NCBI GenBank assembly: GCA_903952205.1
Contig: CAJBEZ010000108.1
Location: forward strand, 1 to 64,000
Direction of reading: 5' to 3'
DNA length: 64,000 bases
From: an uncultured Desulfomonile sp.
GTDB taxonomy: Bacteria; Desulfobacterota; Desulfomonilia; Desulfomonilales; Desulfomonilaceae
Made by a program: the position numbers and the translations under genes. The notes below the pieces were generated by a model. It made no database searches. It was not told the DNA's origin and was given only the letters and a program-made list of their open reading frames with translations. Every line of letters starts with the position of its first letter. Position 1 is the first letter of the stretch. This document shows positions 9,397 through 43,931 of this stretch, in pieces.

Positions 9397-9462
9397 GCTC
9401 TATTTAACAAACGCGTTAAGCAAGAAATCTCGCGTTAGACTTTTTCTTAGAAAGATTATTAG

Positions 9463-9891: not shown

Positions 9892-9931
9892 TGGCGGACA
9901 TCCCCAAGAAAGCGGTTGACGATAGTAATCT

Positions 9932-10435: not shown

Positions 10436-10578
10436 AGTATTTGATTCGCCGACAATTTCTCAGCTTCAGGCATAGAGTGTTTGATATCCATCTGTATCCA
10501 TCTAATTTATTGAGTGGTGAGCAGATTTTGCTAGGAAAAGCCTGTCTATTGTTTCACTCATAAGTTCACAGGTCAGGG

Positions 10579-16527: not shown

Positions 16528-17212
16528 TCTCTGCGCTCCGAGTTTCGCCGTGAATTGAAATCCCATCTCTCAGAAAATCAATCACAGTCTTCACCCAAGT
16601 ATTCAAACCTTCCTGGCTTGCCCTGTAGATACCGGAAGATTCTCCTATAAAATCTGAATAATAGGCTCTAAGCAGTGAATCAAGAAGACTGTATAGAATG
16701 AAGGATATCTTGTCCGTATTTAAGTCGCTCCTCAACTCCCCTTTTGATTTTGCTTCCATAATCAACTCCCCCAGGAAACGCTCAGCGTTTTTCCGGAGTT
16801 CCATCACTTGTTCGGAACCAAACGGAGCTTCTCCTGATTGAAGGAGTTGAAAATATATCCTAGCCATTTGCGGATGCTTGTCTATAAACCGGAATCCGGA
16901 AAGTATGAGTTTTTCTATACGATGAAAGAAATTCTCTCCCGATGTCTCATCTCTGACATTTTTCAAATAGTCCTTGACCAACGCGGAAGAAGCGTCAACC
17001 GTGCAAGTAAATAGCTTTCTCTTTGAGGAGAAGTACTGAAACAAGCTTCCTTTACTTATTTCCGCAGTTCTGACAATGTTATTGACGGAGGCTTTTCTGT
17101 AACCATTTTCAGCAAACTCAGAAATAGCGGAAAGCAAGACCTTTTGTCTTTTAATCGGGGTAAGTTTACGAAATATTTCAGTGCCGATGTCGAACATGTA
17201 ATCCATGGACAT
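16517..17212 (-). CDS. TetR-family transcriptional regulator
   Basis: The N-terminal helix-turn-helix (residues about 20-65: RQKVLLSAISEFAENGYRK, SVNNIVRTAEISKGSLFQYF) is typical of TetR repressors. About 165 residues of helical ligand-binding domain follow. The ATG at 17212 has GAGG six bases upstream. As first gene of the importer-ubiE-menA operon it probably represses its own operon. A perfect 6-2-6 palindrome, TGACCAGATGGTCA, lies 39 bases upstream of the start codon and is the natural operator candidate. Its ligand may be the imported compound. Confidence 0.88.
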   Translation of the reverse strand: MSMDYMFDIGTEIFRKLTPIKRQKVLLSAISEFAENGYRKASVNNIVRTAEISKGSLFQYFSSKRKLFTCTVDASSALVKDYLKNVRDETSGENFFHRIEKLILSGFRFIDKHPQMARIYFQLLQSGEAPFGSEQVMELRKNAERFLGELIMEAKSKGELRSDLNTDKISFILYSLLDSLLRAYYSDFIGESSGIYRASQEGLNTWVKTVIDFLRDGISIHGETRSAENEN

Positions 17213-20115: not shown

Positions 20116-21267
20116 ATGAGCGCTCTTGACGGATTGAAAGTCGTTGATCTGAGCAGACTACTCCCTGGCCCTTTTTGTTCTACTTTGTTGGGCGATCACG
20201 GAGCTGATGTTACAGTTGTGGAAGCTCCACGGTTTAAAGACAGTGATGTCCTTGGGGTTGTTCCGATGGTCCGACGAAATAAGCGTCACATGGCGTTGGA
20301 CCTTTCGGGAAAATCAGGTAGAGAGATATTTTTTGAACTCGTTCAGAAAAGCGACGTTTTAATTGAAGGATTCAGGCCTGGGGTTGTTGCCAGACTCGGG
20401 GTTGATTATGAATCCGTAAGAAAAGTTAACGATCGCATTGTTTATTGTTCTTTGACCGGATATGGTCAGGATGGCCCCTTGAAAGACAAGGCGGGTCATG
20501 ATCTCAACTACATGGCCCTGGCTGGAATGCTTGATCTCATGAGGGACAGAAACGGAAAACTGACCCAGCCCAACTTTCAGATGGCCGATCTTTCGGGTAG
20601 TTTATACGCGGCGCTGGGTATACTCCTGGCCCTTCAATCCAGAACCGCAAGCGGGAAGGGTCAATACGTGGACGTGTCCATGACGGACGGATTGATTTCA
20701 TTGCTGGCGGTTCCACTGTCATTCACATTTACGGGAGCTCAGTTTCCGGGTCGCCCGGATAAAAATGAGCCGCAATCATATCCCTGCTATCGTCTTTACA
20801 AAACAAAGGATGGGGGACACATCTCCATAGGCCCTCTGGAAGAACACCTTTGGAAAAAACTTTGCGAGAAACTCGGTAAACCAGAGTACTCGGACAGGCA
20901 GTACGATAAATCATCCATTTCAGAAATAACTTTGGGACTGGAGGAAACCTTCTCGACTAGAGATCTGAAGGACTGGCTTAAGTTTCTTGAGGGCCCTGAC
21001 TACTGCGTCTCGCCTGTCAACCGCATGGAAGACCTGCCTCACGAGCCTCAATTAATCCATCGCCGGATGATATTGAAAAACTCACAGGGTATACCCATGC
21101 CTGGTTTAACTCCGCGCCTGTCGGAAACACCAGCGTCTATAAGGAAAGAATCTTACACATTCGGTGGAGATACCCGAAAAATATTAATGGAACTGGGCCA
21201 CTCCAAAGATGAAATAACTTCGTTCGAAAGGAAGGGAGTCACATGGGCGCCGGATGAATCATTTTAA
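20116..21267 (+). CDS. Class III CoA-transferase (CaiB/BaiF family)
   Basis: The 383-residue protein is a family III CoA-transferase or racemase. It starts with the canonical LKVVDLSRLLPGPFCSTLLGDHGADV and contains LIEGFRPGVVARLGVDYE, SLTGYGQDGP and HDLNYMALAG, with the expected catalytic aspartate in the last. The ATG at 20116 has GGAG eight bases upstream. A longer TTG-initiated frame is unlikely. Members move CoA between acids or racemise 2-methylacyl-CoAs, and the HDLNY motif leans towards the latter group. There are no degradation genes nearby to fix the substrate. Its last nine bases overlap the 3' end of the convergent nuclease-like gene. Confidence 0.9.
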   Translation: MSALDGLKVVDLSRLLPGPFCSTLLGDHGADVTVVEAPRFKDSDVLGVVPMVRRNKRHMALDLSGKSGREIFFELVQKSDVLIEGFRPGVVARLGVDYESVRKVNDRIVYCSLTGYGQDGPLKDKAGHDLNYMALAGMLDLMRDRNGKLTQPNFQMADLSGSLYAALGILLALQSRTASGKGQYVDVSMTDGLISLLAVPLSFTFTGAQFPGRPDKNEPQSYPCYRLYKTKDGGHISIGPLEEHLWKKLCEKLGKPEYSDRQYDKSSISEITLGLEETFSTRDLKDWLKFLEGPDYCVSPVNRMEDLPHEPQLIHRRMILKNSQGIPMPGLTPRLSETPASIRKESYTFGGDTRKILMELGHSKDEITSFERKGVTWAPDESF

Positions 21268-21813
21268 GCTCCATATCCCAGCCTTCTGGGATCTGGCCTC
21301 ATTCTCAATCGCTTCGAGTTCTGATTGCGCCGGAGCGCGATTCCTGTCCCAATAAGAAAGTCCGCGCCTGATAAGCTCTTTGTTCAGATTAGTTTTGCCC
21401 TCCCAAACCCATGCCCATTCCTGGCCATAACGGTCAAATATAATTGGCTCGAAGTTAATCGATTTGTCCAGAACCATATCTGAAATGAACTTGATCGCTT
21501 CCGGAAAAAAAGATGAATTGCGCTCAGGGCTTTTTGTTCCATACAGACCAATCTTTGTCTTGATCCCCCTGTATTCGACCTCGATGTTTTGAGGGTCCAA
21601 CACTTTGACCACTTTGGCGGTCCGTTTGAAGGGATGAGCCGAAACACATAAACAATTGCTTAACTGACCATCGTTACATCTAAAATAGCCTGATTTTTCG
21701 TCGCAATGGTCAATGCCGCCGTGACGGGAACAACAGGGTGTGGCTGAAAAAGAATAACTCGTGACCAACAAACACATCAAGCCCGTAAAACATATTGGCC
21801 TGAGACTTTTCAT
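21259..21813 (-). CDS. Secreted SNase-fold protein, probably catalytically degenerate
   Basis: The last gene of the polyamide-type operon encodes about 184 residues with a signal peptide (SLRPICFTGLMCLLVTSYSFSA). A cysteine-rich segment follows, with seven cysteines between CCSRHGG and LSNCLC. The C-terminal thermonuclease-like OB-fold runs from about residue 70. The usual DGDT and RLIGIDAPE motifs read DPQN and GLYGTKSPE, so the calcium-binding aspartates and one catalytic arginine are missing. FDRYGQ keeps the other arginine. The enzyme is probably inactive as a nuclease and may serve a binding or structural role. I start at the ATG ending at 21813, which has a GGTGGG site and opens on the signal peptide. 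Confidence 0.7.
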   Translation of the reverse strand: MKSLRPICFTGLMCLLVTSYSFSATPCCSRHGGIDHCDEKSGYFRCNDGQLSNCLCVSAHPFKRTAKVVKVLDPQNIEVEYRGIKTKIGLYGTKSPERNSSFFPEAIKFISDMVLDKSINFEPIIFDRYGQEWAWVWEGKTNLNKELIRRGLSYWDRNRAPAQSELEAIENEARSQKAGIWSLK

Positions 21814-21857
21814 ATCAAAAAACCCACCTTCAATAACGCTCTTTTCGGTCCGACTGG

Positions 21858-24800
21858 TTAAGAATTGCGAGAGTTTTCCTTTGCGAGTAACCAACCGCCG
21901 GTCTGGCTACGGTTTAGTTTTTTAAGCTCTAGCGCAGCGCGGTCGTGACTTATTCTCTCATTAATAAGATCTTTGTAGATTCTTCGGGAAGTACGACGAC
22001 GTTTTATCGCTGCGCTAACATCAAAAAGCGCTTCAAGGGCGTCTACCAACCGCGTCAACAATCCTTTCTTGGCCGACACTCCGAGATGATCTCTTATGCT
22101 GGTCAATGCAGAGTTCATGGCCGATTCTATCATCAAAAGTGACGCATGAACTCTCTCCTTTTGAGCAGCGGGTAATGATTTAACTATTTCTAAAGTTTCC
22201 TTAACCGTGAGTTCGCACAAGAGGCTATAATCCTGGAATGTCGCCAACTCGTTCAAACTTTGCTCAAAGGGCGCCTCTCCCCTTCTGTCAATAAGCTTCC
22301 GGCACGCAGCGTGACAAATTTCCCATGATTGCCACTTGTAAACAAAATCCAGCCCAGTACCCTTAATATTTTGCAGTCCCATGATCCGATTGAGAAGACC
22401 GGGCGGTGTATGAGCGCATATCGTATCTATGATGCGATTCCCAGACGCATGATAGTCTTCGATAATAATAAATTTGTCCATGAACCATTTTGTGGTTATT
22501 TTCTTAAATTTATTGATCAGTTCACCCTTATCGGCTGTCGCCTTTGTTATTTCATTATGAATCTCCCGGAACTCCGACATCAAGTCCTTTTGTTTCTCAA
22601 CATATCTCCAAATGTCGTCAGCATACGTTTTGGTTTCAGAATTACCTATTAGCTCCCTTAACTCCGGGCTATCCAAGGCCACATCTAAGGCAATCTCCAT
22701 ACTTTCAGCGCCGTTTAGCCCTGAGAGAATGGCGTTCAGTCTGATCAAGACATCCCTTTCGCTGGTTGGAATCCGAAGTCGTTTCGCCAGACCAACCAGG
22801 GAAGATTCAGAAATGGACAAATTTTCTGTCACGGATGATACGGACACAACGCTGTTAATGAAGATTTCCCATTCGTCCAAGATAAACTGTTTTAATCCCG
22901 TGAGGTTCGATCCAATCAGAAAATGGTAGTCTGCGCTCAAATCGTTAACTAGTATCGATGCAAACATCCGTGATCTCGACAACCGGTCGGCACGGTTGTT
23001 TACAACGGTACTGATTATGACATCAGGATTTCTTTGGATGTCAATATCGTCAAAGCCCATCCTAACCCAGTTGCTCAAGGTGGCGTACCGCTCATTTGCG
23101 GACATTCCGTTCACAAACTGAAGGCGGCGGCCAGAAACTTTTGCCGTCGGAAAAACCTTTAGAACCCCGATATCCGGCACGACACGGTCCGCCATTTCCT
23201 TCAGGGCAAAGTTCGGGTCGATACCCAGTTCCTGAACTAGGGTGAGGACTAGCGAGATGTTGTTAGGGTGCTCCTCGTAGGGAAACCTCTCGAGGACATC
23301 TCTGGTTAACATTCCAGATTCCTTCCAATCCGCGGGAACAAACCTTGTATGTAGTTTGCTCGCCGCAGATCTCAGAATTGGTTTCATTTCTTTTTCAGAG
23401 GTTAAAAGAACGCTCTTAGTGGGGATAAAGGACTCCATAGCCTGGGGAATATTTATGCCAGCCGGTCCCTGTATATCTTCATGGTCCGGGTATGCGTTTG
23501 TTATTGTGGAATAGTCATCTACGGACCATTGTCTTTGAAGGATTCTCAAAAACGAAGGGTTCAAACCCATACATTCCCACAAAAAGATCTTACTTTTAAG
23601 CTTGTTTCCCAAAAGCATCATGTCATGATGTTCCCAAATTGTAGCCTTGTCGTAGGGCCTAAAAATGAACATCTCTCGAGTCTTGCCGAAAGGATACGCA
23701 TGAAGGAACATGGCTTCGCAACCCGTAGTCTTCGCCATCAGGCCATAGCCCAGAGACTCAAACAAGGCCGTCTTTAATCGCTCGACCCCGGATTTACCTC
23801 TGGTTCCCCAACCTCCTATGCAAAGCGCAAAACTTTTTCTCGCTTTTTTGATTGACCACCTTACATAGAGGAGCCTGCTTACGAAAAATCCGAGTAGAAC
23901 CGCGCTTAAAATTCCCAATTGGTACAGTGAATTTTCATACGCCGAAAAGAAGTAATCTCTAAACCTGGGCCACAAAAGAGAAAGATCTATTCCGAGGAGA
24001 CTCGGAAAAAATCGCAGCACAGCGCCATCATTCAACGGTTCTCTTTGATCCTTTCTGTGGCTGGTGAACCGGCAATCGACGCCTATAGCCGCCAACGCTT
24101 CCACATAAGACCCCGGTTTTGCGCCCCCGGCTTCGTTCCAATTTCGCAGGTGGGCGTAATGAGAAAAACCAAAGGTCAACCTGAAGAAAGCAATAAGTCG
24201 TTTTATCAAAGATTTGGGAGGAGTAACTTCGGTAACTCCTTCCGCCGTATACAATTTCAGATGCCGGGGAGCCAGGGGTCTTTTGCAAAGACTCGCAACG
24301 TGATCCACCAGGGGAAGATATGGACGCCAGCCTGATTCTGACTCCATGTAAAGAGGTTCACCGGGTACCCTTGTCTCTGTGAGTTCACAACATATGTGCG
24401 ATGGAGCCCTGAGACTGGCCCTCGAAGTCCTTCCTGTGGTATGACTGAACCCCTGCCGTTTGTCAGGCATGGGATTGCGTAATTCATGGATAAATCGCCA
24501 CAGTCTAAAACCGAAGACATCCCCCCTTGTTATTCTGAGACCTCGGGAAGATGATGCTACATTAAGATCTAAATCGTCCTGGCTCATCACTGACAGAACT
24601 CTTCCAAGGAGTTCTTCATTCGCCCCCAGAAGTTCGGATCGACGAATAGACACTGATTGTCCCATACTGATATTTTCGATCCGTTTAATAAGAATACCCT
24701 TGAGTGCCCGAGCTTTCGTGTCGGTAGTAACAAACATGACTTCTCGAGCCATCGCTGCACGTCTTCTCACAGACAGATCCGGACAGTTTCTGTGCAGGTC

Positions 24801-26057
24801 CTCGATGGCGTCAAGGACTGAAGAGTATAATGAATCGGATTCAGAATTGGCGCCCTCCTCTGATAGGCGCTCCACTGTCCGGGAGACCGTTTCGAGTCCA
24901 ACGAGTAGAACAAATGAATCTTTTTCTCCTGTGAAATGATCAATGAAGAAATCTGACACCGGCTTTATGCAGTCTGTTAGAGAAGTCAGAAAACCAATTG
25001 CATTTACAGTCCAGCTCCTGACCTCGGGAACCGCATCTTTTTTCGCGAAGGTTGTCAACTTGTCCAGAAGTCTCAGTCTATGATCTTGAACCTTAGAGCT
25101 GTTGAATTTCTGTGCCAATAATGAGACCAACCCCTGTCGAACATAGGGACTGGGATCGTTAGCAGCGATCCCAATTAGGCCCACCGATTCCTCTACCGTA
25201 TCTTCCGTCTCAGCCTCAAGGGAGAGAACCGCCCTGCGGAGAAATATCCCCTCTCCTCCAACAGGCTGTTCAAATATCCGCTTCACGGCGGTTTTGTAAC
25301 CATTAGAATCGATCAGCCGTAAGGTCTTCAGCGCTTCAACCTTGACCCATATATTTTCTGAAGTCTCGAGGGATGACCTGTAAATGAACCTCAGAGATTT
25401 GGGAGCTAGCCCATCTGACTCGGTAAGGGATGACGTGACAGCGACGATCGAATAAAGACATCTGTAGGCGCCAATCCTGACCCTCAAATCACCCTTGTAA
25501 GCCATTAAGAGGCTGAAAGTCTCTTCAAATCCCGGCTTACGCCAAAATGCCCCTCGTAAGGCGCCTTCATTTTCCACGGCCATTGTTGTTGAAACGATAT
25601 GCCCGATTCTCCCCAATACAAAGCAAATCTGGTATTCAAAGTCGCAGATTTGTTTCGCGAGACGTTCCAGAACCGCGTCGTAAGCAAACCATCTTCGAAG
25701 AGCCTTCCTGTCCCTGACCAAATTCCGTCCTGATGACCCAAGTAATTTGGCCAGACTCATAACGTGTTCGGTTTTCTGGTGTTCAGTTGAGGCTCTTGAA
25801 AGCCTGACATCGAATTCAGATCGCAAGGTTTCAAGATAAGCTATTTTTTCCAGTCTTTTTTTGACTTCCCAACCCAGAAAGTCAATAAGGGTCTCCCCTG
25901 CCCATCGATCGTCAACAGTTGACCTCGAGATTTCGCCCGGCAAGTTCCGGGACTCGAAGTCACGGGAGATTTCATCAATGAGGTCGGAATAAAGATCCTT
26001 TTGCCAGTCCCTTAGACCGGAGAGCAAGAGTCCATTTATTGTCCCGGTAATGTTCAT
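21858..26057 (-). CDS. PgsB/CapB-like polyamide synthase with N-terminal helical repeats
   Basis: A 1,399-residue protein. Residues about 100-500 are HEAT-like helical repeats. One transmembrane segment (QLGILSAVLLGFFVSRLLYV) lies near residue 720. A Mur-ligase-type domain follows with the marks of the poly-gamma-glutamate synthase PgsB/CapB: P-loop GGWGTRGKSGVERL near residue 750, KTTGCEA, WECMGLNP, NAYPDHEDIQGP. PgsB uses ATP to join gamma-linked glutamates. Bacillus PgsB has only about 390 residues, so the helical N-terminus and a helical tail of about 300 residues are additions. The ATG ends at 26057, 56 bases after the barrel gene. A PgsC-like protein in the same operon is the expected partner. 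The polymer's monomer is not known. Confidence 0.8.
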   Translation of the reverse strand: MNITGTINGLLLSGLRDWQKDLYSDLIDEISRDFESRNLPGEISRSTVDDRWAGETLIDFLGWEVKKRLEKIAYLETLRSEFDVRLSRASTEHQKTEHVMSLAKLLGSSGRNLVRDRKALRRWFAYDAVLERLAKQICDFEYQICFVLGRIGHIVSTTMAVENEGALRGAFWRKPGFEETFSLLMAYKGDLRVRIGAYRCLYSIVAVTSSLTESDGLAPKSLRFIYRSSLETSENIWVKVEALKTLRLIDSNGYKTAVKRIFEQPVGGEGIFLRRAVLSLEAETEDTVEESVGLIGIAANDPSPYVRQGLVSLLAQKFNSSKVQDHRLRLLDKLTTFAKKDAVPEVRSWTVNAIGFLTSLTDCIKPVSDFFIDHFTGEKDSFVLLVGLETVSRTVERLSEEGANSESDSLYSSVLDAIEDLHRNCPDLSVRRRAAMAREVMFVTTDTKARALKGILIKRIENISMGQSVSIRRSELLGANEELLGRVLSVMSQDDLDLNVASSSRGLRITRGDVFGFRLWRFIHELRNPMPDKRQGFSHTTGRTSRASLRAPSHICCELTETRVPGEPLYMESESGWRPYLPLVDHVASLCKRPLAPRHLKLYTAEGVTEVTPPKSLIKRLIAFFRLTFGFSHYAHLRNWNEAGGAKPGSYVEALAAIGVDCRFTSHRKDQREPLNDGAVLRFFPSLLGIDLSLLWPRFRDYFFSAYENSLYQLGILSAVLLGFFVSRLLYVRWSIKKARKSFALCIGGWGTRGKSGVERLKTALFESLGYGLMAKTTGCEAMFLHAYPFGKTREMFIFRPYDKATIWEHHDMMLLGNKLKSKIFLWECMGLNPSFLRILQRQWSVDDYSTITNAYPDHEDIQGPAGINIPQAMESFIPTKSVLLTSEKEMKPILRSAASKLHTRFVPADWKESGMLTRDVLERFPYEEHPNNISLVLTLVQELGIDPNFALKEMADRVVPDIGVLKVFPTAKVSGRRLQFVNGMSANERYATLSNWVRMGFDDIDIQRNPDVIISTVVNNRADRLSRSRMFASILVNDLSADYHFLIGSNLTGLKQFILDEWEIFINSVVSVSSVTENLSISESSLVGLAKRLRIPTSERDVLIRLNAILSGLNGAESMEIALDVALDSPELRELIGNSETKTYADDIWRYVEKQKDLMSEFREIHNEITKATADKGELINKFKKITTKWFMDKFIIIEDYHASGNRIIDTICAHTPPGLLNRIMGLQNIKGTGLDFVYKWQSWEICHAACRKLIDRRGEAPFEQSLNELATFQDYSLLCELTVKETLEIVKSLPAAQKERVHASLLMIESAMNSALTSIRDHLGVSAKKGLLTRLVDALEALFDVSAAIKRRRTSRRIYKDLINERISHDRAALELKKLNRSQTGGWLLAKENSRNS

Positions 26058-26113
26058 CCGCAACAACCATAAGTTTTTGGATCATAAATTTTCAAAGAAA
26101 CCGTCCGTTCATC

Positions 26114-29100
26114 TCATGAACCGTTGTGACCAAGGGTTATCGGAGTAAAAAAGCTTTCTGGACCGGGGCTTATATGATTATTCCTGATTTGTGGGACCCG
26201 GCGTTTCCTGATATCTACAAAATCCGCCTCACTGGGACGAAAATCCCTAAGCCCCCTACCATCGCCAAAGAAATAAGACAGGGATATGTAGCCTGACACG
26301 TCCATCTTGTCAAAATCAAAATCTGTCTTACAGAGCAATTGTAACCTTCTTTGAGATATCATCCACCTGTCGCAGGCCAGTTCTACGGCAAGGATGTGAC
26401 GATCACTCGACTTGGTTCGATTGGCGCCGGCAAAGTAAAAGGAGTATTTGTAAACTACGTCCATTTGAAACCGGCCAAGCAGTTGTTTCCAGCCTGCATC
26501 GACCTTTACGTTGTCATAGTTGATAGGACTCAGATTTTGATTTGTCTGCGCGGAGATTCTGGAAAACCATATTGTGTCAAGCCATGGCTTATATTCAAAA
26601 TATTCGCCAAATTTTAGACCAGCTTTGTGCTCAGCCTTGTATTTGGTAAATACATCGTCGTCCACCCACCAGGATGGGAACTGAGTATTGGTTTCCATGC
26701 TTAGAACTCTTCCAAAAACCGAAATTGAGGGCAGGTGAAAGAATTTGGGGGTAATTTCACAGACCTGAGTTACGCTGCCTTCTAGAGTTCCGCAGTATTC
26801 TGCGCTACCTCCGCCAAAGAAACCAAAAGTCTCAGCTCCGGGTTTCTGTATATATAGGCTGGTGGCCAGTCCCACATTCCACGGAAAATTCGTGGGATAA
26901 TAGACAGCGTCTCCAAGAAAACCGATGGTCGGGCCACCGGTTTCCCGAACTCGGGATAGAAAAGTCCCCTTGCAATAACCCGGAAGATATTGTTCGAAAT
27001 ATCGATATGTCGCTGCCACCTCGACGAATTTTGCCTCATCAGGTTTCGAACTTGGAGACGCCTGAGGCGAATTGCTCACCTGAATTGGTTCGTCGACATC
27101 CCTGGGTTTACGATAGGTCCCGCTCAGTGACCAGGTTCCATCCTGCTGTTTGCCAAGCCGATATTCATCGTCGAGGACTACCAGGCGGGGTTCCGCCGCT
27201 GATCCTACCGAAAAAACCGGGCCGGGAACCGCCGCAAAATAAAATTCAATTGGACGTGGAATGGTAAGGTCCTGTTCTGCGGGCGCAATTATTTTCCGTT
27301 GAATTCTAAAAAGAGCCTCCTTCTCACCCTTTCCCGGAGTGAGATTCAATTCGTGCCATCCATGTTCGAAGAACCTGTAGGAAACTACCTGATCTCCATC
27401 CCTCAATTCATCTATTCTAACCCAGGATGGACCCTCTATTTCCGCCCTGACCGGTCTTTGATGCGTGGCAACGTAATAAAGCCGTTCATCCGGTTTCGTC
27501 ATTACTAAATCCAGACATCTCCCGTCGGAAGTTTTTTCACAAAAGTTCACTTTCAGGAATTGGTTCGCATATTTTGTTCTTATCCACACAGATACTCTGT
27601 GTCGTCCGGTGGGTACAGCCAGACGTAGCGCACTTGAAGGATTTTGCCCCGAAAGTGTGAATTCATGAGGTTTTTCATCGTCGAGTTGACAGGTCAGTTT
27701 CATGGCCGCTGGTGGAAGAAATCGCAAGTCCATGAGTGAGAGTTTGATCTCAAGATCGGATGGTTTAAGATTTTCCATTACGAGGATGGTTTTGTCTCGA
27801 CCGGCGACAACACGCTCTCCTGGAGCGACCGGTTCAATAAGAGCTTTTCTAACCCTCAAAGAATCGCCTTCGGGTTCCCATCCTGTCAACCTGACAAATT
27901 TAAGGCCTGCTGTGGCCTGAATAAGACTCAAAGACTCCCAGGCGGTTTTATCGGACAGTCTGGGTAGCAGGCTGCGAATTTCGGGGACGGCTGGATGGCC
28001 CTCGCAAAGCCTCTGCGCTCTAGCCTCAGCTTCGGAGAGTCTAGCTGGCTGGGTCTCACCCCAGTATACCAGCAAATCCATTGCATCCATGACACCCTTG
28101 GAATCATTTTCATCCAACTGTCGTAAAGCCGAAAGAATGTCTCCTCTGCCAAGATCAAGCGCTCGGCGGCGCCCGCCTGGATTCGGATCTCTGATTCTAC
28201 CACGTACAAGGCTTCTCATGCCGGCTAGCAATTTCCAGTGAGAGTTGTCCAAGGCTGGAAGTTCGCGAGGCCTCCATGTCGATCGGATCACCATCTTGTC
28301 GCAGATATAAATCGGACGGGACTCATTTGGAAAAGGTAAAATCGTCAAACAGGTCCTTCCCAAACAGGAAATTCGATCGGTAAACCCCGTTGGTTCCGGT
28401 CTCACAGGACCTCTTAGAGCAGCGTCAACTGTGTCCGGTGTGAGCTGAGGCAAAAGCCCCAGGCTCATTTCAGGGCGCTGTGATTCAAGATTTACGATTA
28501 TGGGGATATCTCCACCATGGACCTCTATATCATGAGGACCTGGACCTAGAGTCAAAATCTTCTGTATCAACTGTCCAGTTTGATGTCTGGAGTCACCGAC
28601 TATGGTCAGTCCTTCGCTTGGCGTGTTGTTGTTAATAGGAGCTATGTATTTCTCATCTCCAGTTTTGATTTGCACCCAACCATTAAGGGGCTGAGTGGAT
28701 CGCTTTACGTGCAAGGGCCTGGCCGTTATTCTAACAGCGACAGGGCCGTATATATTGGCTCTCACTGGCCGCGATGAGCCGGCTTTGAAGCCCCGGAAAT
28801 AGAGGTCCCTTGGAATGCTGTAAAGCGTGACGCCCCCACTATAATCGCTAATGGCGTCAGGTTCTTCAGCCCACCTGTGAGGACCCGGATGATTTGCCTG
28901 CCATATCTCCCATTCTGTGACTGCCTTGACCCGATCATTAATTGAGCAGGATTTCAATTGATCCTGGATTGTCAGGCCGGACCTGATGGTGTCGGCGTAT
29001 CTTTTTCCCAATTCACCAGAATTCCCTAATAATTTGAGAGTCGCTACGTAGGCGCCGCCTTCTACACTCTTGAATGCCGACCAATAATTGCGTTCAGCCT

Positions 29101-31729
29101 GATCGCCCAACTGGGGAATGAGGTCACTGTAAACGTGAAACCAGCCAACATATCTACTTGCCCTAAGTAAATCCCTAACGGGTCTTTCGGGCCTTGGCAG
29201 GGCCATGCCAGCCATTAGAGCCATCTCGTAATGGCCTGCCAGGATGAGTGTGGAACAAAGGTCCCGGATTGTCTGAGGCTCCGGACGCATCAGAACTTCC
29301 GTAGCATACAGGGAAAGGAGATTCTGAGGATCATCGGTTTGATCAAAATTCGCCTTATACATCTTCAGAAGTTGGTTGAAAGCTGCTTTAGAGAGTTCAG
29401 CGTCTTTATGTCCGTCGGGCTGAATATAAAGATAGCGGAGAAACATCTCGGCAAGAAACATTTCCCCTAGATTCCGCAGGGACTTGGTCATCATTAGAGC
29501 GGCTTCAGATTTCTTTGATCCAGTAGTCCTGTGGTAAATTTCTCCCCATTCCTCAAGTGATATCAGCCACTGTCCCCCTTTCTCGGCCCTCTGGGCCTTA
29601 CTTGTCAAGTCACTTAACTGGGTGGCGCTCAGTCGATCTTGTCGTCCCCCCGATCCTGGCAAATTCTTGATGGATTCTTTCACTGGCCCCTCAAATGTTG
29701 TCTTATTGGATTTCAAAAGGTATACAAGGGGTAACCAGAAGCTTTTCAAGTCCTTCTTGGCCAAGGCGAAGAGATTGAGGAACCCGTGCCCCAACTCGTT
29801 TTGGTTCGATAACGACACTGTAGGAGAAGTAAGGGCCCTGACAAATTCTCTAAAACAAGCGCCATCGCCACCGAGAAGATTTTCGGCCTCTATGTAGTCC
29901 CTCTCCGACATCCTGAAGGGGTTTGACTCTCTATACTGAAGCGACAGCCTTATTGGACAGGAGCTTGGTCCGTAGGCCCACGCGAAAACCTCTGAAACGT
30001 TTGGCGGCAGATTCAATTCGAAAGTGGCGGTTTCCTTTAGTGGGGCTGGATTGTGGCGTAAACTGAATGGTCCGCCAAGAGTGGTTGCGTCCTGCCCGGG
30101 TCTGTTGATCCGTAATAGCTCCAGTCCGGCTTCGCCTTGAGAAATCTTGTAAGTGGAAATGGGCGCTTCAGATCCTGGAACGAGTGCAAACGCTATTGTG
30201 TCCCCTCCAACCATTTTAATTACCAAATTCTGTACACTGTGACTTTTTTCTACGGCGACCCTGAGTCGAGTCGGAGCGAATCTCTTTGGTATCCAGTAAT
30301 GGAGGGGGCCACCCGGCCGCCCAGATCCTACGGGCTCACCGGGTGAAGTCAAATTTGAGACCGGAAGAGTAACAAAAAAGCCTGACGCCAGTCTGTCCAA
30401 GTAGGAATTCATGTGCCGCGCAGCGACAACTAGGTCAGGTTCATCAAATCGCTTGAGATTGCGATCTACGAACCAGCCGAACTGCTGCCTGTCACTCGAG
30501 ATTTTATTTGAAGGAATAAGACTTCGGAAACCGGTATTGAAACCTTGAAACTCCTGGGCCTTGTTTCTTACCTCAGGGGCGTCGGGCCTCTGGCGACCTG
30601 AAGATTCGAGGATCGATGTTCCTACAAGAGCCCCCTCTCTTCTGCTGTTATCGAGCCTGAGGCGGTCTGCGACCTTTTCCAGCTCAGGGGCTGCGCCTTG
30701 TGGGGTTGCGACGATAACCTCCATGTCTCTGTCGTCCAATCCCCACGACGGGATTCTCGATATTACAGGATTGATGAAGCCTCTGACTTCACCGGCCGTG
30801 ATCTTGGGCTGATTGAGAGTTGGAAAAAGGTAATCCGGATTTGACTGCAAGAGAGTTCTAGCGATAACATCGGCAGTAGGCGTTAGGGTGAGACGATGAC
30901 TTCCACATGGTATTTCAACGAATCCTCGCCTAAGCCGACCTAGGACCTGTGAACATCCCTTGACATATAGCGTTTTGGTGTTTTCCGGGGCGGTTTCCGC
31001 GTCCAATATCGACAGTTCCACTCCATCAAGCCGGCATTGAAATCGATAATTCTGTAACAGCGTGTCCTCTGTAGGACATACGATCCTACTTTCAACCGCC
31101 AGACGGCAAGGACCCTTTACGTCCACATCCACAGGACAATTGGCGGTTAATCGAAAGAATTTCTCGGAGCCGCATTTGTCGCTACGTTTCAGTTTGATCG
31201 GACATCCAGGCAGACACAACTGGCGCCTGTATGGGGCAATTTCGTCAAGGGTGTCTCTCCTTGAAACAAATATCGCCACAGTTAATCCACAGATTGAAGC
31301 CATCGGTAACGATACCCTGCACATCAGAGGATCAGGCCCATTTGGAGCCAGAAGAAGAGATCTGCCGTCAGTGGTAGCCTGTAGACCGAGATACGCTTGC
31401 AATCCAGTTCCCTGAGATGCGGACACTTCAACAGAACCCGGAGGCAGCGCTCCATCAGGGTTCATAATCCGTAATATTTCGTACGCCGGGAGCATAACGT
31501 TTACGCATGAACCGGGCTTGAGCGTGATTGTGCTCATGCGGTGCTTAACACTGTAGGAAGGCGCCATGCCGGACACCCATAATGGGGACTTGTCCACGTT
31601 ATCCCAACGAAGGGGCAATTCGTACTGCTGAAGAAGTCTAAGCTGAGCGTCATCGAGTTCTGACGAACTCGTTCCAGGCATTCCGATGATCAGCAGTGTC
31701 AGGCATACAAATGAAAATGCGCTTTTCAT
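26114..31729 (-). CDS. Giant periplasmic/outer-membrane protein with C-terminal beta-barrel, candidate polymer exporter
   Basis: A 1,871-residue protein with a signal peptide (SAFSFVCLTLLIIGMPGTSS). The N-terminal half holds beta-rich domains, one with about ten cysteines. A related motif recurs at least three times: FFRLTANCPVDVDVKGP, the segment with PVRANIYGPVAVRI, and LYYVATHQRPVRAEIEGP. Residues about 690-960 are TPR-like helices. The last 330 or so residues alternate like a transmembrane barrel (VGLATSLYIQK, VSGYISLSYFFGDG). Helical scaffold plus C-terminal porin recalls the exporters PgaA and BcsC, which carry polysaccharides through the outer membrane, but I see no detailed sequence match. 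The ATG overlaps the upstream stop (ATGA). In this operon it is the best candidate for the export pore. Confidence 0.65.
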   Translation of the reverse strand: MKSAFSFVCLTLLIIGMPGTSSSELDDAQLRLLQQYELPLRWDNVDKSPLWVSGMAPSYSVKHRMSTITLKPGSCVNVMLPAYEILRIMNPDGALPPGSVEVSASQGTGLQAYLGLQATTDGRSLLLAPNGPDPLMCRVSLPMASICGLTVAIFVSRRDTLDEIAPYRRQLCLPGCPIKLKRSDKCGSEKFFRLTANCPVDVDVKGPCRLAVESRIVCPTEDTLLQNYRFQCRLDGVELSILDAETAPENTKTLYVKGCSQVLGRLRRGFVEIPCGSHRLTLTPTADVIARTLLQSNPDYLFPTLNQPKITAGEVRGFINPVISRIPSWGLDDRDMEVIVATPQGAAPELEKVADRLRLDNSRREGALVGTSILESSGRQRPDAPEVRNKAQEFQGFNTGFRSLIPSNKISSDRQQFGWFVDRNLKRFDEPDLVVAARHMNSYLDRLASGFFVTLPVSNLTSPGEPVGSGRPGGPLHYWIPKRFAPTRLRVAVEKSHSVQNLVIKMVGGDTIAFALVPGSEAPISTYKISQGEAGLELLRINRPGQDATTLGGPFSLRHNPAPLKETATFELNLPPNVSEVFAWAYGPSSCPIRLSLQYRESNPFRMSERDYIEAENLLGGDGACFREFVRALTSPTVSLSNQNELGHGFLNLFALAKKDLKSFWLPLVYLLKSNKTTFEGPVKESIKNLPGSGGRQDRLSATQLSDLTSKAQRAEKGGQWLISLEEWGEIYHRTTGSKKSEAALMMTKSLRNLGEMFLAEMFLRYLYIQPDGHKDAELSKAAFNQLLKMYKANFDQTDDPQNLLSLYATEVLMRPEPQTIRDLCSTLILAGHYEMALMAGMALPRPERPVRDLLRASRYVGWFHVYSDLIPQLGDQAERNYWSAFKSVEGGAYVATLKLLGNSGELGKRYADTIRSGLTIQDQLKSCSINDRVKAVTEWEIWQANHPGPHRWAEEPDAISDYSGGVTLYSIPRDLYFRGFKAGSSRPVRANIYGPVAVRITARPLHVKRSTQPLNGWVQIKTGDEKYIAPINNNTPSEGLTIVGDSRHQTGQLIQKILTLGPGPHDIEVHGGDIPIIVNLESQRPEMSLGLLPQLTPDTVDAALRGPVRPEPTGFTDRISCLGRTCLTILPFPNESRPIYICDKMVIRSTWRPRELPALDNSHWKLLAGMRSLVRGRIRDPNPGGRRRALDLGRGDILSALRQLDENDSKGVMDAMDLLVYWGETQPARLSEAEARAQRLCEGHPAVPEIRSLLPRLSDKTAWESLSLIQATAGLKFVRLTGWEPEGDSLRVRKALIEPVAPGERVVAGRDKTILVMENLKPSDLEIKLSLMDLRFLPPAAMKLTCQLDDEKPHEFTLSGQNPSSALRLAVPTGRHRVSVWIRTKYANQFLKVNFCEKTSDGRCLDLVMTKPDERLYYVATHQRPVRAEIEGPSWVRIDELRDGDQVVSYRFFEHGWHELNLTPGKGEKEALFRIQRKIIAPAEQDLTIPRPIEFYFAAVPGPVFSVGSAAEPRLVVLDDEYRLGKQQDGTWSLSGTYRKPRDVDEPIQVSNSPQASPSSKPDEAKFVEVAATYRYFEQYLPGYCKGTFLSRVRETGGPTIGFLGDAVYYPTNFPWNVGLATSLYIQKPGAETFGFFGGGSAEYCGTLEGSVTQVCEITPKFFHLPSISVFGRVLSMETNTQFPSWWVDDDVFTKYKAEHKAGLKFGEYFEYKPWLDTIWFSRISAQTNQNLSPINYDNVKVDAGWKQLLGRFQMDVVYKYSFYFAGANRTKSSDRHILAVELACDRWMISQRRLQLLCKTDFDFDKMDVSGYISLSYFFGDGRGLRDFRPSEADFVDIRKRRVPQIRNNHISPGPESFFTPITLGHNGS

Positions 31730-32631
31730 CGGAGTGTTCCGTCCAGACATTTCATGAAAATTTTGCGCAGATTCTGGTTGACCTTGAACTGCTGACGGAG
31801 TTCATGGCTGATCTCAATGTGAACGAATGTTTTCCTTCCTATATTCCTAAGCAGTTGTCCGCTAATGTTCTCAGTGGCGCCCAGTTCGTTGATGTCAACA
31901 GGATAAACTCTAACTTTTCCAAAGTGGCCATCGGTTAGGCATTTCCGAAGTTCAAGCAACTCCGAGCGAGGTTTGTCGTCCCCTGCGCTTATAATTATAT
32001 CCGCAGATTCCCCCGCCTGCGATCTACGCTTACCGGTCTGAAATCCGTGTATCTGGATTTGATATGCGTCTGGTAGAGTTTCCGCCAAGGCCTTAGTGAA
32101 AGCGGTCAAGTAAGTCCTGGGCAATCTGGCCAAGTCGCAAGTCATGTTTGTCGGTTCGCCTTTTGGATATCTCCTGGCCGTATTCCATGCGGCGGCTGGG
32201 AATTTGCCTTCCAGAAACATGTTGAGACCGATTTTTCCTGTCGCCTCGTCGGTGAATCTGTGAGGCATGATGAGACATCTCTTTTTTTCAGTTATGTCTC
32301 TAAAGAGATAGAAACCTCTTCCCCGTTTTTCATTTTTCTTTTCCATCAGGACAAGAAAGTTGGAATCATCGCTGTGAGCGTGTATCAGGTTGAAACCCAA
32401 GGCTGACCAAGCTGACACAATCTCGGTTCCTGTTTCGCCCCTGAGAGTCCTGGCGAAAAGCTCCTGCGCCTTTTCGAATTCACCTTCCTTAAGTTCAGCG
32501 CAGTCTCCTCCCGCCGACATGTTGTATAGGGACTCAACTTCGGGCCTTTCCGGTATTTTCATATCTGAGCCTAGCGCTATAGTGTTCAGGAACAATGCTG
32601 CCACAAGGCTAAAAAACAGGGTTAACGTCAT
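31726..32631 (-). CDS. Secreted hydrolase-like protein related to the PgsC-tail repeats
   Basis: The 301-residue protein has a signal peptide (TLTLFFSLVAALFLNTIALG). Candidate metal/catalytic residues lie in three blocks: MPHRFTDEATG (H124, D128/E129), IQIHGFQTGKR (H195) and FVHIEISHELR (H271, E273, H276). Their order recalls zinc carboxypeptidase-type folds, including phage poly-gamma-glutamate hydrolases, but I cannot assign a family with certainty. The same blocks occur twice, with the histidines replaced, in the PgsC-like protein of this operon. It overlaps the lipoprotein gene by 23 bases and its stop overlaps the barrel gene's ATG. A role in trimming or releasing the polymer is the simplest inference. 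Confidence 0.55.
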   Translation of the reverse strand: MTLTLFFSLVAALFLNTIALGSDMKIPERPEVESLYNMSAGGDCAELKEGEFEKAQELFARTLRGETGTEIVSAWSALGFNLIHAHSDDSNFLVLMEKKNEKRGRGFYLFRDITEKKRCLIMPHRFTDEATGKIGLNMFLEGKFPAAAWNTARRYPKGEPTNMTCDLARLPRTYLTAFTKALAETLPDAYQIQIHGFQTGKRRSQAGESADIIISAGDDKPRSELLELRKCLTDGHFGKVRVYPVDINELGATENISGQLLRNIGRKTFVHIEISHELRQQFKVNQNLRKIFMKCLDGTLR

Positions 32632-35197: not shown

Positions 35198-38100
35198 TGC
35201 AGCCTTAACCACGCACAACGGGAATTGACAAACTCTTCGACGATTTCTCTGTTTAGCGTTTTTCGATTGGCGTCCAACCCAGTTGATGAATCGAGAGGCA
35301 GGAGATTTGCTACGGCTATAAGGCAACCATCTCTTGCGCTTACCAGCATGAAGCTTTGCTTTGAACTGACGTCTAAAAGCCTTTCGAACCTATATTTCCC
35401 AAATTCTTTGAGAAGCCTGTTCAAGCTGACAACATCTCCCGTTTCCATGTAATCAGCCATTGTGGTGATCAATTCGGAGGGAAGTGGGCTTTCAGTTAAA
35501 CACTTTTTTTCATTGTGAATCGTTTCAAACAGATCGGCCTGGATCATCGGAATGTCCAATGCCTCAAACTGTTGCTCCTGGACTCTATTCTCCGATTGTT
35601 GCTGGTAATATTTTCGTGTCGTGGGCGCTATCCAGACCACTACAAATTCTTTGTTTCTCGATTGATCCAGGTATAATGATTGAGTTATTCCGCCGACCTC
35701 ATACCCCATCACGCTCGGTGATCCATCTGTAAAGCCTACCGCAGAGCGATCTCTCTCCAGGATGTTCATGAGCCGAACCATCAAAGGATCCATCGCTGCA
35801 GTTGTGGTGGCCCCGGACTTGAGAGACAGAATTTTGTCCAGATCGGTTGGCGGCCGGTCCGGTCGATATCCGAACGCCCGACATTGAATCACAAGCATAT
35901 TCTGATGGTGCGATTCGCGAACAATTGCCTGATTTACAAGATTGAAAAGATTGACCTTGTTTTCGATACGGATGATGTCGGAACTACCGTCTACGTTTGC
36001 CAGAGGATGTGATCCGCCAATTAGCAGGGCCTTCGCCTGCAATTGCTCAAAGAGACTTACGCCAAATTCGAAAACATTTAATTCTGTTATCGGTCTTGGA
36101 ACCTGAATCACGTATCCCTCTGATTTCCCCATTCGGATTACGTATGTGCCCCAATACTTCCTTCTCGAAAGGTCTTTGCGTTCTGAGAGGATGACGTAAT
36201 CTTGACCGCTGTTCTTATCCCTGTATCTTATGAATTCATATCCGACAGAAGCGGCGAGATATGAGAGAGCGTTAAGGTTGTTAATGCCCAGGTTAGTCCA
36301 GCCATGTTCGTCATAGAATTCCGAAGATAATTCCAGGAACGGGGCCAGAACCTCTCTGTCAAAATATAGCAAGTCGTCCAAAGTGGCTTTTACGTATAGG
36401 TTGGATCCGCGTTCGGGGAATTCTTCTTTTTGGGCCAATATCCAGTCCTGCAAATAACCTACGATGCTCTGATTCCGATTTTCCTGCTGAACCTCGAAGT
36501 CTTTCTGATCTGGGCCCGCCATGATCCTAAGTAGACTGGTCCGGTCTAGCAGCAATTCCGCAAAACCCGTCGGGACAATATCCCTAAGGATATTCAGAAA
36601 AGGAGGGCTCCCCCATTCCACCTGGAAAGGCCCTATGATGTTTTTGAGGTTAATCAAATTTAACCCCTCAGGAGTCTCTTTTCTTACCCACAGTGTGGAT
36701 TGCGCAATTCGCGGGGGTCTATCTTTCGATTCGCCGACTTCGTTTTTGGAGATTCCCTTGACTTCTTCAGCGAATCCTCTTACTTGAAGAATCCCCCTTG
36801 ATCCCATTACCTTGTGGAAAATCCCAAACATAGTGGACTGATTTGCAAGCGCGTCTGAAGACCCATCGGGAGAGGTAGTTCTGGCGCTACCTGCAACGGC
36901 CATGGCCCTCGCGCCCAAGCCAGTGAAGAGCGTGACACCTGCGTCGCAAATTCCCCATTCTTCAACTGGCGCAGGAATTTCAATCAACAGGTCGGATTTA
37001 GCCGATGGGTTTATAACGTAGATCCCCCATCCGTGTCGACGCTCTCTCTCATTGATCATGAGATAGCCCTCCGGTAGGAGATTGATGTTGAAATTTATCA
37101 GGTAGAGGAGTTTCGCAGCGTTGTTCAATGCCTCGGTTTCGCCTGTCTTTAGGTATTCCGAAAGGTAATCAAGAGCCTGAACGAAGATGTCACTTTCGTT
37201 AGGCATGGGGGATTTGTATGAATTGGGTAATAGGGAGCCAGTTATTCCAGACTTCTGTTTCCGTATTATTTCAAGGAGATTCTGCCCCACTGGCTTTATC
37301 AGGTCCCCTGGAATCTCTGGACTTGACAGTGCCCTCAGGTTAAAGAAATTGGGGACCTGTTTAAGCCCGAAGCCTATGACCGTAGCGACCAATACCGCCA
37401 CCAAAGAGGTCTGAAGTGTAGCAAGCGTCACTCTCGCCATTATGTCTTTGTCGTACATGCGGATGGCTAGAAGAGTTGTAAGTAGATAACCGAAGCCGAA
37501 ATAGTCTGTGACTCTATGTTCCGGGAAATATGCCACTATGATATGGGCCAGGGTAAGGTGATAGATAAATCCAACGTTAAAGAAAAACAGGATTTTCCTT
37601 CCACCTTCTATATTTGCGTTTTTGAAGATCGGAATTCTAAGTAACAGGGACGACAGGCCAAGAATCAGGAACGATTCAATAAAACTCCACAGGATCTTTT
37701 CCGGCTGATACCACTGCAGAGCGAGCAGGGATGGTACTAGAATCCCTCCAAACTCCCATCCGTAGTCCAAATTCACGCGTGAGGCTACGAATGCCGTGAT
37801 CAGAAGTATGATGTAAGATTTTGGACTCGCCAGCATGGACTTGGCGACATCCATGTAGATGTAATTCAGGTTACCTATGTTGTAGTTGGTAAACTCCATC
37901 AGACCATAACGGACAAAGAGGTAGGTAACAATTATGGTGATGGAGCTTTGAAAAAGGCCTTTTCTCAATCCGGGTTTCCAGAATTGGTTCGCTAACAGAG
38001 CTACTACTACAAGTCCAAAACTGTGGAGATTGTTCCTGTAATCGAAGCCAGGGATCCAGGTGTCAGAGAGATACTCCCCAACCGGCGGTAGAATGAAAGT

Positions 38101-38436
38101 CTCGAGTATGATGCGTACGACCACGCTAACGCAAAAAATGGCAAAAAATCTGTCCCTACCGAAAAGTCCGTTACCTATTCCGAACTTGGGGAAATATTCC
38201 GACCACATCAAAACAATAATGTATGTGAGTATCGCCTCAACAAATACGATAGCGGCCGCCCAAGGCTTTAGAATAAGCAGCGGCACGAGGTAGCCCGGGA
38301 CAACCAACCCACTGAGGACCCATCCGAACCTGAGATTCATGAAGCAACTGACACATACCCCCACCCAGACACTTGTTGTTACAGCGCCAGCAGCAGTTCC
38401 GAGCGGAAATAATGGGAACCACGACACATGTTCCAT
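35194..38436 (-). CDS. PgsC/CapC-like membrane protein: tandem PgsC domains plus a repeated pseudo-hydrolase tail
   Basis: A 1,080-residue protein, first in the operon. Residues about 15-190 match PgsC/CapC (SGLVVPGYL, LTYIIVLM, GRDRFFAI, HSFGLVVVALLANQ). Residues about 215-360 look like a second PgsC unit (GGILVPSLLALQW, EGGRKILFFFNVGF). PgsC is the small membrane partner of PgsB and normally has only about 150 residues. The soluble rest has two long repeats (about 415-640 and 680-945) and a truncated third (about 985-1050). The repeats share GWGIYVI/YWGTYVIR and IPAP...GVTLF / VPRP...GVSLF with the hydrolase-like protein of the operon, but its histidines are Ala489/Arg553 and Arg781/Arg853. 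I infer an inactive binding or scaffold domain. Confidence 0.8.
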   Translation of the reverse strand: MEHVSWFPLFPLGTAAGAVTTSVWVGVCVSCFMNLRFGWVLSGLVVPGYLVPLLILKPWAAAIVFVEAILTYIIVLMWSEYFPKFGIGNGLFGRDRFFAIFCVSVVVRIILETFILPPVGEYLSDTWIPGFDYRNNLHSFGLVVVALLANQFWKPGLRKGLFQSSITIIVTYLFVRYGLMEFTNYNIGNLNYIYMDVAKSMLASPKSYIILLITAFVASRVNLDYGWEFGGILVPSLLALQWYQPEKILWSFIESFLILGLSSLLLRIPIFKNANIEGGRKILFFFNVGFIYHLTLAHIIVAYFPEHRVTDYFGFGYLLTTLLAIRMYDKDIMARVTLATLQTSLVAVLVATVIGFGLKQVPNFFNLRALSSPEIPGDLIKPVGQNLLEIIRKQKSGITGSLLPNSYKSPMPNESDIFVQALDYLSEYLKTGETEALNNAAKLLYLINFNINLLPEGYLMINERERRHGWGIYVINPSAKSDLLIEIPAPVEEWGICDAGVTLFTGLGARAMAVAGSARTTSPDGSSDALANQSTMFGIFHKVMGSRGILQVRGFAEEVKGISKNEVGESKDRPPRIAQSTLWVRKETPEGLNLINLKNIIGPFQVEWGSPPFLNILRDIVPTGFAELLLDRTSLLRIMAGPDQKDFEVQQENRNQSIVGYLQDWILAQKEEFPERGSNLYVKATLDDLLYFDREVLAPFLELSSEFYDEHGWTNLGINNLNALSYLAASVGYEFIRYRDKNSGQDYVILSERKDLSRRKYWGTYVIRMGKSEGYVIQVPRPITELNVFEFGVSLFEQLQAKALLIGGSHPLANVDGSSDIIRIENKVNLFNLVNQAIVRESHHQNMLVIQCRAFGYRPDRPPTDLDKILSLKSGATTTAAMDPLMVRLMNILERDRSAVGFTDGSPSVMGYEVGGITQSLYLDQSRNKEFVVVWIAPTTRKYYQQQSENRVQEQQFEALDIPMIQADLFETIHNEKKCLTESPLPSELITTMADYMETGDVVSLNRLLKEFGKYRFERLLDVSSKQSFMLVSARDGCLIAVANLLPLDSSTGLDANRKTLNREIVEEFVNSRCAWLRLQ

Positions 38437-38735
38437 GAGAATGTAGTCGCCTTCTGTTGGAAAACTAGGTTAAAAAATATTATATCATGTTAAGTCTATT
38501 TATAACAATAATATAATGCTAAAATGTAAATTTAAATATTATTATATTTGATGTTGGTTTAGAAAAAGGTACGGGATTCAAGCTAATATTAAATTCAAAA
38601 ATAGGTATTTATGTAATTAAAATGATGTATTTATACTATAGTAAACGATATATCATATAAACTTTTACTAAAGCTAATTAATATTAGTAGTTTTATGGTG
38701 TATTAATTTTGTTAATATAATGTGGTTAATACTTT
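38437..38735 (-). other. Very AT-rich 300-base regulatory gap upstream of the polyamide-type operon
   Basis: The gap separates the CHASE2 gene and the operon, both on the minus strand. It is strikingly AT-rich (long runs such as TTATTATATTTG and AATTAATATTAG), more than any other gap in the window. No open reading frame or tRNA is visible. It holds at least one good sigma-70-like promoter (listed separately). The composition suits an intrinsically curved DNA segment or an H-NS-like silencer target. Confidence 0.6.
38479..38508 (-). promoter_or_regulatory. Candidate sigma-70 promoter of the polyamide-type operon
   Basis: On the minus strand TTGTTA (38503-38508) is followed after 18 bases by a perfect TATAAT (38479-38484), giving a predicted start near 38472, about 35 bases before the PgsC-like ATG. 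Many near-consensus -10 elements occur by chance in such AT-rich DNA, so this is the best candidate rather than a proven site. Confidence 0.45.
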
Positions 38736-43765: not shown

Positions 43766-43931
43766 ATCATAACTCCTCAATAAAATGGCGCATGAAGGAT
43801 GTGAGCCACAAGCGGCCAAAAGCAAAGTTGAACGAAAACTTTCATAATTTAATGCAAATGTCAAATTATTATATAGTAATTAATTATATAGTAGCTAAAT
43901 AGGATTGCGATAAATCTAAAGAGGCCAATAA

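Follow-up and report, generated by a model that had tools for sequence, protein, structure and literature searches.

A candidate trans-envelope system for poly-gamma-glutamate or a similar polymer, with long PgsB and tandem-CapC PgsC proteins, in an uncultured Desulfomonile

The gene cluster considered here lies in a 64,000-nucleotide stretch of DNA (the window) from an uncultured Desulfomonile sp., namely positions 1 to 64,000 of contig CAJBEZ010000108.1 (C108) in a genome of 4.78 Mb and 120 contigs (GCA_903952205.1). It is a minus-strand operon in which genes for a PgsC-type membrane protein, an anchored periplasmic protein, a secreted hydrolase-like protein, an exporter-like protein with an outer-membrane barrel and a long PgsB-type amide ligase follow one another (Table 1); the anchored-protein gene begins at ATG 35197 and thereby forms an ATGA overlap with pgsC. 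The initial annotation of the window had listed six genes, and all of their open reading frames (ORFs) were found at the place and on the strand described, as were the PgsB and PgsC motifs that it quoted. The borders of the set had to be shifted, since its last gene, for an SNase-fold protein, is absent from the loci of relatives and a gene upstream of pgsC recurs in them. The conserved unit is 21858-41504 and not 21259-38436, and it includes a CHASE2/HATPase-like gene that the annotation had left out; in many relatives the system also has a receiver-domain protein.

Table 1 Coordinates of the gene cluster, its domains and its immediate flank in the window
Feature	Position (bases)	Strand	Basis
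CHASE2 sensor with degenerate histidine-kinase-like C-terminus, 922 amino acids (aa), first system gene	38736..41504	-	PF05226, synteny
A+T-rich gap between the CHASE2 gene and pgsC, 299 bases	38437..38735	-	79% A+T
PgsC-like membrane protein, 1,080 aa	35194..38436	-	PF14102, two stretches
CapC repeats of PgsC	37960-38364 and 37432-37797	-	PF14102
Degenerate hydrolase-like domains of PgsC	~36763-37197 and ~35881-36252	-	hydrolase profile, 1.1e-8 and 2.7e-6
Inner-membrane-anchored periplasmic protein, 862 aa	32609..35197	-	lipobox LTGC|D
Secreted enzyme, predicted, of the N-formylglutamate amidohydrolase (FGase)/poly-gamma-glutamate hydrolase fold, 301 aa	31726..32631	-	alignment, AlphaFold model, fold matches
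Exporter-like protein, 1,878 or 1,871 aa (start 31750 or 31729)	26114..31750	-	model, synteny
C-terminal outer-membrane beta-barrel of the exporter, residues ~1536-1832	26255-27145	-	AlphaFold model
Long PgsB amide ligase, 1,402 or 1,399 aa (start TTG 26066 or ATG 26057)	21858..26066	-	TIGR04012
Catalytic part of PgsB	22881-23900	-	TIGR04012
SNase-fold secreted protein, ~184 aa from ATG ~21813, outside the conserved system	21259..21894	-	PF00565, 2e-12

Related loci were found by scanning genome contigs with a PgsB alignment; the loci and phyla given below are lower bounds. A synteny survey with profiles built from the window proteins covered 80 loci, and only those with enough upstream sequence were counted. 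The arrangement in the window, from PgsC through the anchored protein, the hydrolase and the exporter to PgsB, was conserved in relatives. Of the 54 loci that could be scored for the exporter gene 48 had it, and the corresponding figures were 39 of 46 for the hydrolase, 40 of 42 for the anchored protein and 26 of 28 for PgsC; the system genes stood in a different order in four loci (L050, L051, L060 and L064). As dozens of genomes carry these five core genes together, their order is not due to chance, and across many Gram-negative phyla they make up a single syntenic system. The co-occurrence that the initial annotation had expected of its whole gene set thus holds for these five genes and fails for the SNase gene, which was seen in no relative locus.

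Assignment of the two large proteins to the PgsB and PgsC families was borne out by profile searches: PgsC matched PF14102 in two stretches (E=1.4e-42, 145.3 bits against a gathering score of 27), and residues 723-1062 of PgsB matched TIGR04012 (E=2.1e-55); both proteins score below the NCBIfam equivalog cut-offs, which are taken up further on. Judged by their sequences, PgsC and PgsB are true homologues of the classical families. CapsuleFinder treats CapB and CapC as mandatory and CapA and CapE as accessory in capsules of poly-gamma-glutamate (PGA), and has reported PGA capsule systems in most phyla (PMC5542703); CapB- and CapC-type proteins were both found here, as its rule demands. PgsA/CapA is missing, as had been noted at the outset: the sole PF09587 match in the genome lies ~65 kb off on the same contig and is below cut-off. 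This absence is no obstacle, because PgsB and PgsC alone suffice for PGA formation in B. subtilis (PMC6029982).

The enlargement of both subunits, another of the early claims, could be resolved into domains. PgsB keeps the motifs GxRGKS, ECM, NxxxDH and NxRxDRxxR, which are invariant and in common with classical PgsB, and has one conserved predicted transmembrane segment (~716-740) about 15-20 residues before the P-loop, as in the classical protein. The ~700 residues of its N-terminal half show weak similarity to HEAT_2 (6.1e-5) and contain conserved stretches around residues 523-570. The long-PgsB clade also has fixed motifs of its own (GGWGTRGKSGVERL, LWECMGL, PDHEDxQGP and SANER) and a large insertion in the C-terminal domain before a GNIxGxG-type motif. 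In PgsC, two CapC repeats lie within one ORF of ~820-1,110 residues in 23 of 23 carrier genomes, and in most of them the C-terminal half also contains two domains which the stand-alone hydrolase's profile picks up. Two separate long-PgsC loci were observed in each of the genomes of Vreelandella massiliensis (L112, L118) and Sulfidibacter corallicola (L123, L131).

The stand-alone 301-aa protein had been called hydrolase-like, and its fold agrees with this. The AlphaFold model (mean pLDDT 92.4) is closest to the N-formylglutamate-amidohydrolase-like structures 2odf (Z 14.5 over 184 residues, 3.1 A) and 2q7s (Z 13.0), and it also matches poly-gamma-glutamate hydrolases, namely YndL with bound PGA (Z 12.0), the phage PM1 enzyme (11.9) and PghP (11.9). 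Residues H124, D128, R154, H195, E273 and R279 are invariant in the alignment, H124, D128, H195 and E273 being so across 31 hydrolase sequences, and the elements P123-H124-xxx-D128 and Q193-x-H195-G196 vary little or not at all. H124 and D128 follow a strand and precede a helix, H195 lies near a strand end and E273 in a late strand, an order in keeping with the M14-type plan of this superfamily. The modelled protein has the gamma-PGA hydrolase/FGase fold with the zinc-site pattern intact and is predicted to be an enzyme; none of the 31 members matched the gamma-PGA hydrolase family PF05908. Homologues were also observed beside short PgsB proteins: an unannotated secreted one on Streptomyces clavuligerus plasmid pSCL4 (L020:11668-12660) adjoins a pgs cluster with a short PgsB and a PGA_cap-like gene, and one on Chroococcidiopsis plasmid pCHRO.01 (L021:10004-13380) belongs to a set with a short PgsB and a 333-aa double-CapC PgsC and is followed by an HlyD-type protein. 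The association of this enzyme family with PgsB therefore extends beyond the present operon type.

In the two related domains of PgsC the metal site is lost. Most of them have lost the first histidine, and in most second domains arginine stands in its place; the second histidine has become arginine in nearly all aligned sequences, and Arg853 is identical in 32 of 32 sequences. The loss of metal ligands and the gain of fixed arginines suggest that these pseudo-hydrolase domains may have been switched from cutting an anionic chain to holding it.

Of the exporter-like protein, the last 1,000 residues were modelled by AlphaFold (pLDDT 84.7) as helical/TPR repeats and beta-sandwich modules followed by a C-terminal barrel of ~14 strands, which is the architecture of BcsC- and PelB-type exporters, where helical repeats precede a C-terminal closed beta-barrel. 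PelB (Z 14.9) and BcsC (14.5) are among the fold matches of the barrel, in keeping with its early description as exporter-like, next to CymA (18.9) and OmpG (18.4). A similarity to MtrB/PioB was under the Pfam cut-off (E 0.027) and was set aside, the fold comparison giving the clearer result. By hhalign, the anchored protein has modules in common with the exporter's N-terminal half (probability 94%, E 1.2e-7). In the window it has the lipobox LTGC|D with Asp at +2, which in enterobacteria is an inner-membrane retention signal; in nearly all relatives it carries a single N-terminal transmembrane signal anchor and no lipobox. The two types of anchor point the same way and agree with a predicted location in the inner membrane, so that the inner-membrane part of the early description stands, and the word lipoprotein fits only the protein in the window. 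Homology of the anchored protein to S-layer (Sap) proteins was considered and not accepted, the hits being weak (E 0.03). For the anchored protein, the hydrolase and the exporter, no Pfam or NCBIfam model scored above cut-off, and searches of PDB sequences with the PgsB, PgsC, hydrolase and barrel profiles returned nothing useful. As a separate observation, a Kordia (Bacteroidota) bin (L103:10013-15088) carries a short PgsB, PgsC, PgsW, a 311-aa periplasmic protein homologous to an exporter module and a 385-aa barrel-like protein, possibly a split form of the export route.

When the carrier-genome stretches were extended upstream for inspection of the genes beyond pgsC, ~900-aa CHASE2 homologues were found directly upstream in most proteobacterial relatives, and several lineages have a gene for a lone receiver-domain protein of ~125 residues between these and pgsC. 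The protein in the window matches PF05226 (1.4e-9) and weakly HATPase_c PF02518 (0.0018). Since an alignment of 32 such proteins has no histidine at its conserved positions, the CHASE2 protein may be a pseudokinase sensor. The 299-base gap between this gene and pgsC holds no receiver-domain ORF. It possibly contains a promoter; promoter-like sites in 38437-38735 are no commoner than in shuffled sequence.

The system is widespread and patchy. Long PgsB proteins of 1,270-1,560 aa, among the matches listed, were found in at least Desulfobacterota, Gamma-, Alpha- and Betaproteobacteria, Myxococcota, Acidobacteriota, Bdellovibrionota, Verrucomicrobiota, Planctomycetota, Hydrogenedentes and Poribacteria. 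Neither 17 genomes from the window's own genus and family nor the remainder of a 395-genome sample from its phylum yielded a long PgsB. The exporter profile, in counts that include the centre genome of each sample, was found in 25 of 193 Myxococcota genomes, 7 of 398 Pseudomonadota genomes, 1 of 121 in the family of Halomonas daqiaonensis and 1 of 147 in the phylum of Desulfocicer. In the PgsB tree the window protein groups with Desulfobacteraceae (SH-aLRT 97), and that of Marinobacter daqiaonensis lies within Halomonas-type sequences, apart from other Marinobacter, a placement which suggests horizontal transfer of the system. A recent foreign arrival in the window was considered and is not supported, the GC content of the operon being that of its surroundings. 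Searches of plasmids with PgsB gave only short, distant PgsB, no exporter homologue was found on plasmids, and plasmid matches to the C-terminal domains of PgsC occurred only in Streptomyces clavuligerus; a scan of viral contigs with a single protein, by means of low-degeneracy stretches, gave no match. The ordinary short form of PgsBC is also present in Desulfobacterota: a distant genome of this phylum (G169, L024:7974-10795) has such a PgsB-PgsC pair, and a third membrane protein comes after it.

We consider it probable, at roughly 0.6, that in Gram-negative bacteria these genes serve the trans-envelope, synthase-dependent export of poly-gamma-glutamate or of a closely similar polymer of gamma-linked amino acids. 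PgsB, as a membrane-anchored ligase of the Mur-ligase/FPGS type, would activate glutamate carboxylates with ATP and lengthen the chain at the inner face of the inner membrane, and the double-CapC PgsC would form the membrane part of the synthase and conduct the chain across the bilayer. The degenerate hydrolase-like domains of PgsC, with their metal-binding histidines mostly turned into arginines, would grip the polyanion without cleaving it. The anchored protein would bridge the periplasm together with the beta-sandwich and helical repeat modules that match it in the barrel protein, and the polymer would leave through the ~14-strand outer-membrane barrel, much as cellulose does through BcsC and Pel through PelB. 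The secreted hydrolase, with its zinc-site pattern intact, could trim, release or clear the polymer in the periplasm, and the CHASE2/HATPase-like membrane protein, in many relatives with its receiver-domain partner, may sense an external cue and regulate the system. Of the complete trans-envelope machine for PGA or a related polyamide proposed in the initial annotation, the PgsBC system with an outer-membrane part is retained; poly-gamma-glutamate itself is a reasoned inference.

The proposed system has in common with the PgsBCA(E)/CapBCA(E) systems of Bacillus and Fusobacterium (TIGR04012, TIGR04011/PF14102) the catalytic motifs of PgsB, the CapC domain and the adjacency of the genes, but differs from them in the length of PgsB (1,400 versus ~400 aa), in a CapC that is doubled and fused to hydrolase-like domains, in the absence of PgsA, and in the additional anchored protein, hydrolase, outer-membrane barrel and CHASE2 protein. 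Its exporter resembles BcsC (cellulose) and PelB (Pel) in joining TPR-type helical repeats to a C-terminal barrel that would serve an inner-membrane polymerase; however, there is no detectable sequence relation, periplasmic beta-sandwich modules are also present here, and the synthase is an ATP-dependent amide ligase rather than a glycosyltransferase. The 301-aa protein shares its fold and the order of its metal-site residues with PghP/YndL (PF05908) and N-formylglutamate amidohydrolase, yet it has no Pfam match to either family, is encoded inside the synthesis operon and has inactive-looking duplicates inside PgsC. The Chroococcidiopsis set shares the double CapC and the hydrolase homologue, and the Kordia set the separate periplasmic module and barrel-like protein beside PgsBC; both have a short PgsB and no fusions, and they look like simpler or intermediate forms.

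Several observations weigh against export of PGA by this route. The chemistry of the polymer is reasoned from genes and folds, and the scores of the synthase fall short of the equivalog level: PgsC reached 58.8 bits against TIGR04011 (cut-off 96.45) and PgsB 188 bits against TIGR04012 (cut-off 222.7), for which the PgsB of three relatives reached 186.5-215.5. The monomer may accordingly differ, and the same machine might make another polyamide, from another amino acid, from mixed residues or as a capped or modified gamma-glutamyl chain. The fixed motifs peculiar to the long-PgsB clade and its large insertion in the C-terminal domain fit such a product; in Mur-type ligases the incoming amino acid is bound in that domain. 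Nevertheless, the long PgsB shares NxRxDRxxR and other C-terminal motifs with the PgsB of Fusobacteriota, Actinomycetota and cyanobacteria, and the hydrolase that accompanies it is folded like gamma-glutamyl-specific enzymes, so we regard a different polyamide as unlikely. The N-terminal half of PgsB, beyond the transmembrane segment and without a signal peptide, is not accounted for by the favoured scheme; charge bias decides neither membrane side for the C-terminus of PgsC, and in four loci (L046, L048, L121 and L129) the hydrolase-like domains of PgsC are too diverged for confident alignment.

The remaining objections concern the barrel. Its gene is missing upstream of PgsB in 6 of the 54 loci, and L046, L048 and L062 appear truly to have no exporter nearby, so export may not always require it. 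This absence would also suit a system that fixes short gamma-glutamyl chains to an envelope component, with the barrel protein as an anchor or assembly factor, as would the large periplasmic modules in which the barrel and anchored proteins are rich and a hydrolase-fold enzyme that could conceivably work as a transferase. We hold such attachment to be quite improbable, the barrel being modelled as a closed, pore-like fold with exporters among its matches, and no CapD-type transpeptidase having been noticed in the operon, although no search was aimed at CapD. The highest Z scores of the barrel belong to general small porins, and its fold alone is therefore no proof of export. As these best matches, CymA and OmpG, are uptake porins and the hydrolase appears catalytically intact, the barrel and hydrolase might instead import and degrade environmental polyglutamate, with PgsB and PgsC repurposed. 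The ligase, however, retains its ATP-binding P-loop and catalytic motifs, and no oligomer importer was seen in the conserved set, which makes salvage very hard to credit. Export of a gamma-linked polymer is the preferred explanation.

Around the cluster, the SNase gene that the initial annotation had counted as a part of the system was ruled out as a member, no homologue having been found in any surveyed relative locus; its degenerate product is encoded 44 bases downstream of pgsB and is probably an unrelated passenger. The strand of the operon also encodes, upstream of the CHASE2 gene at 41672-43864, a 730-aa protein with a DUF2314 C-terminus. Farther off, minus-strand genes at 12486-17212 encode a TetR regulator, an NMT1/THI5-like binding protein, an ABC ATPase, a permease, a UbiE-type methyltransferase and a UbiA prenyltransferase, that is, an importer adjoining quinone-type biosynthesis genes, and a row at 7994-11268 encodes a protein with the C-terminal domain of HPr kinase, RapZ, and the sorbose-type PTS components EIIB and EIIC.

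Polyglutamate synthesis has been studied almost solely in Gram-positive bacteria. Given the CapsuleFinder survey, PgsBC genes in Gram-negatives are not new, and PGA has been demonstrated in Fusobacterium nucleatum (as cited in PMC3815933). At the same time, the passage of Gram-negative polyglutamate across two membranes is a puzzle, the classical genes providing no outer-membrane part. In the open-access literature we found no description of such a part, of a tandem PgsC or of this operon, and none of the family libraries searched describes this export route; the system is easily missed in annotation because its anchored protein, hydrolase and exporter lack a Pfam or NCBIfam model. The gene set supplies a concrete, testable answer: it offers a candidate for the pore, a bridge across the periplasm and a hydrolase of its own. 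Tentatively, and with somewhat less than even confidence, we propose that it represents a new class of trans-envelope secretion of amide polymers, in which an arginine-lined pseudo-hydrolase chain holder would feed a PelB/BcsC-like outer-membrane exporter. It would be patchily distributed in at least seven phyla and frequent within part of the Myxococcota, and its carriers could have an unrecognised polyglutamate capsule or matrix. For cultured carriers such as Halomonas, Marinobacter and Corallococcus, the presence of these genes suggests an unrecognised surface polymer.

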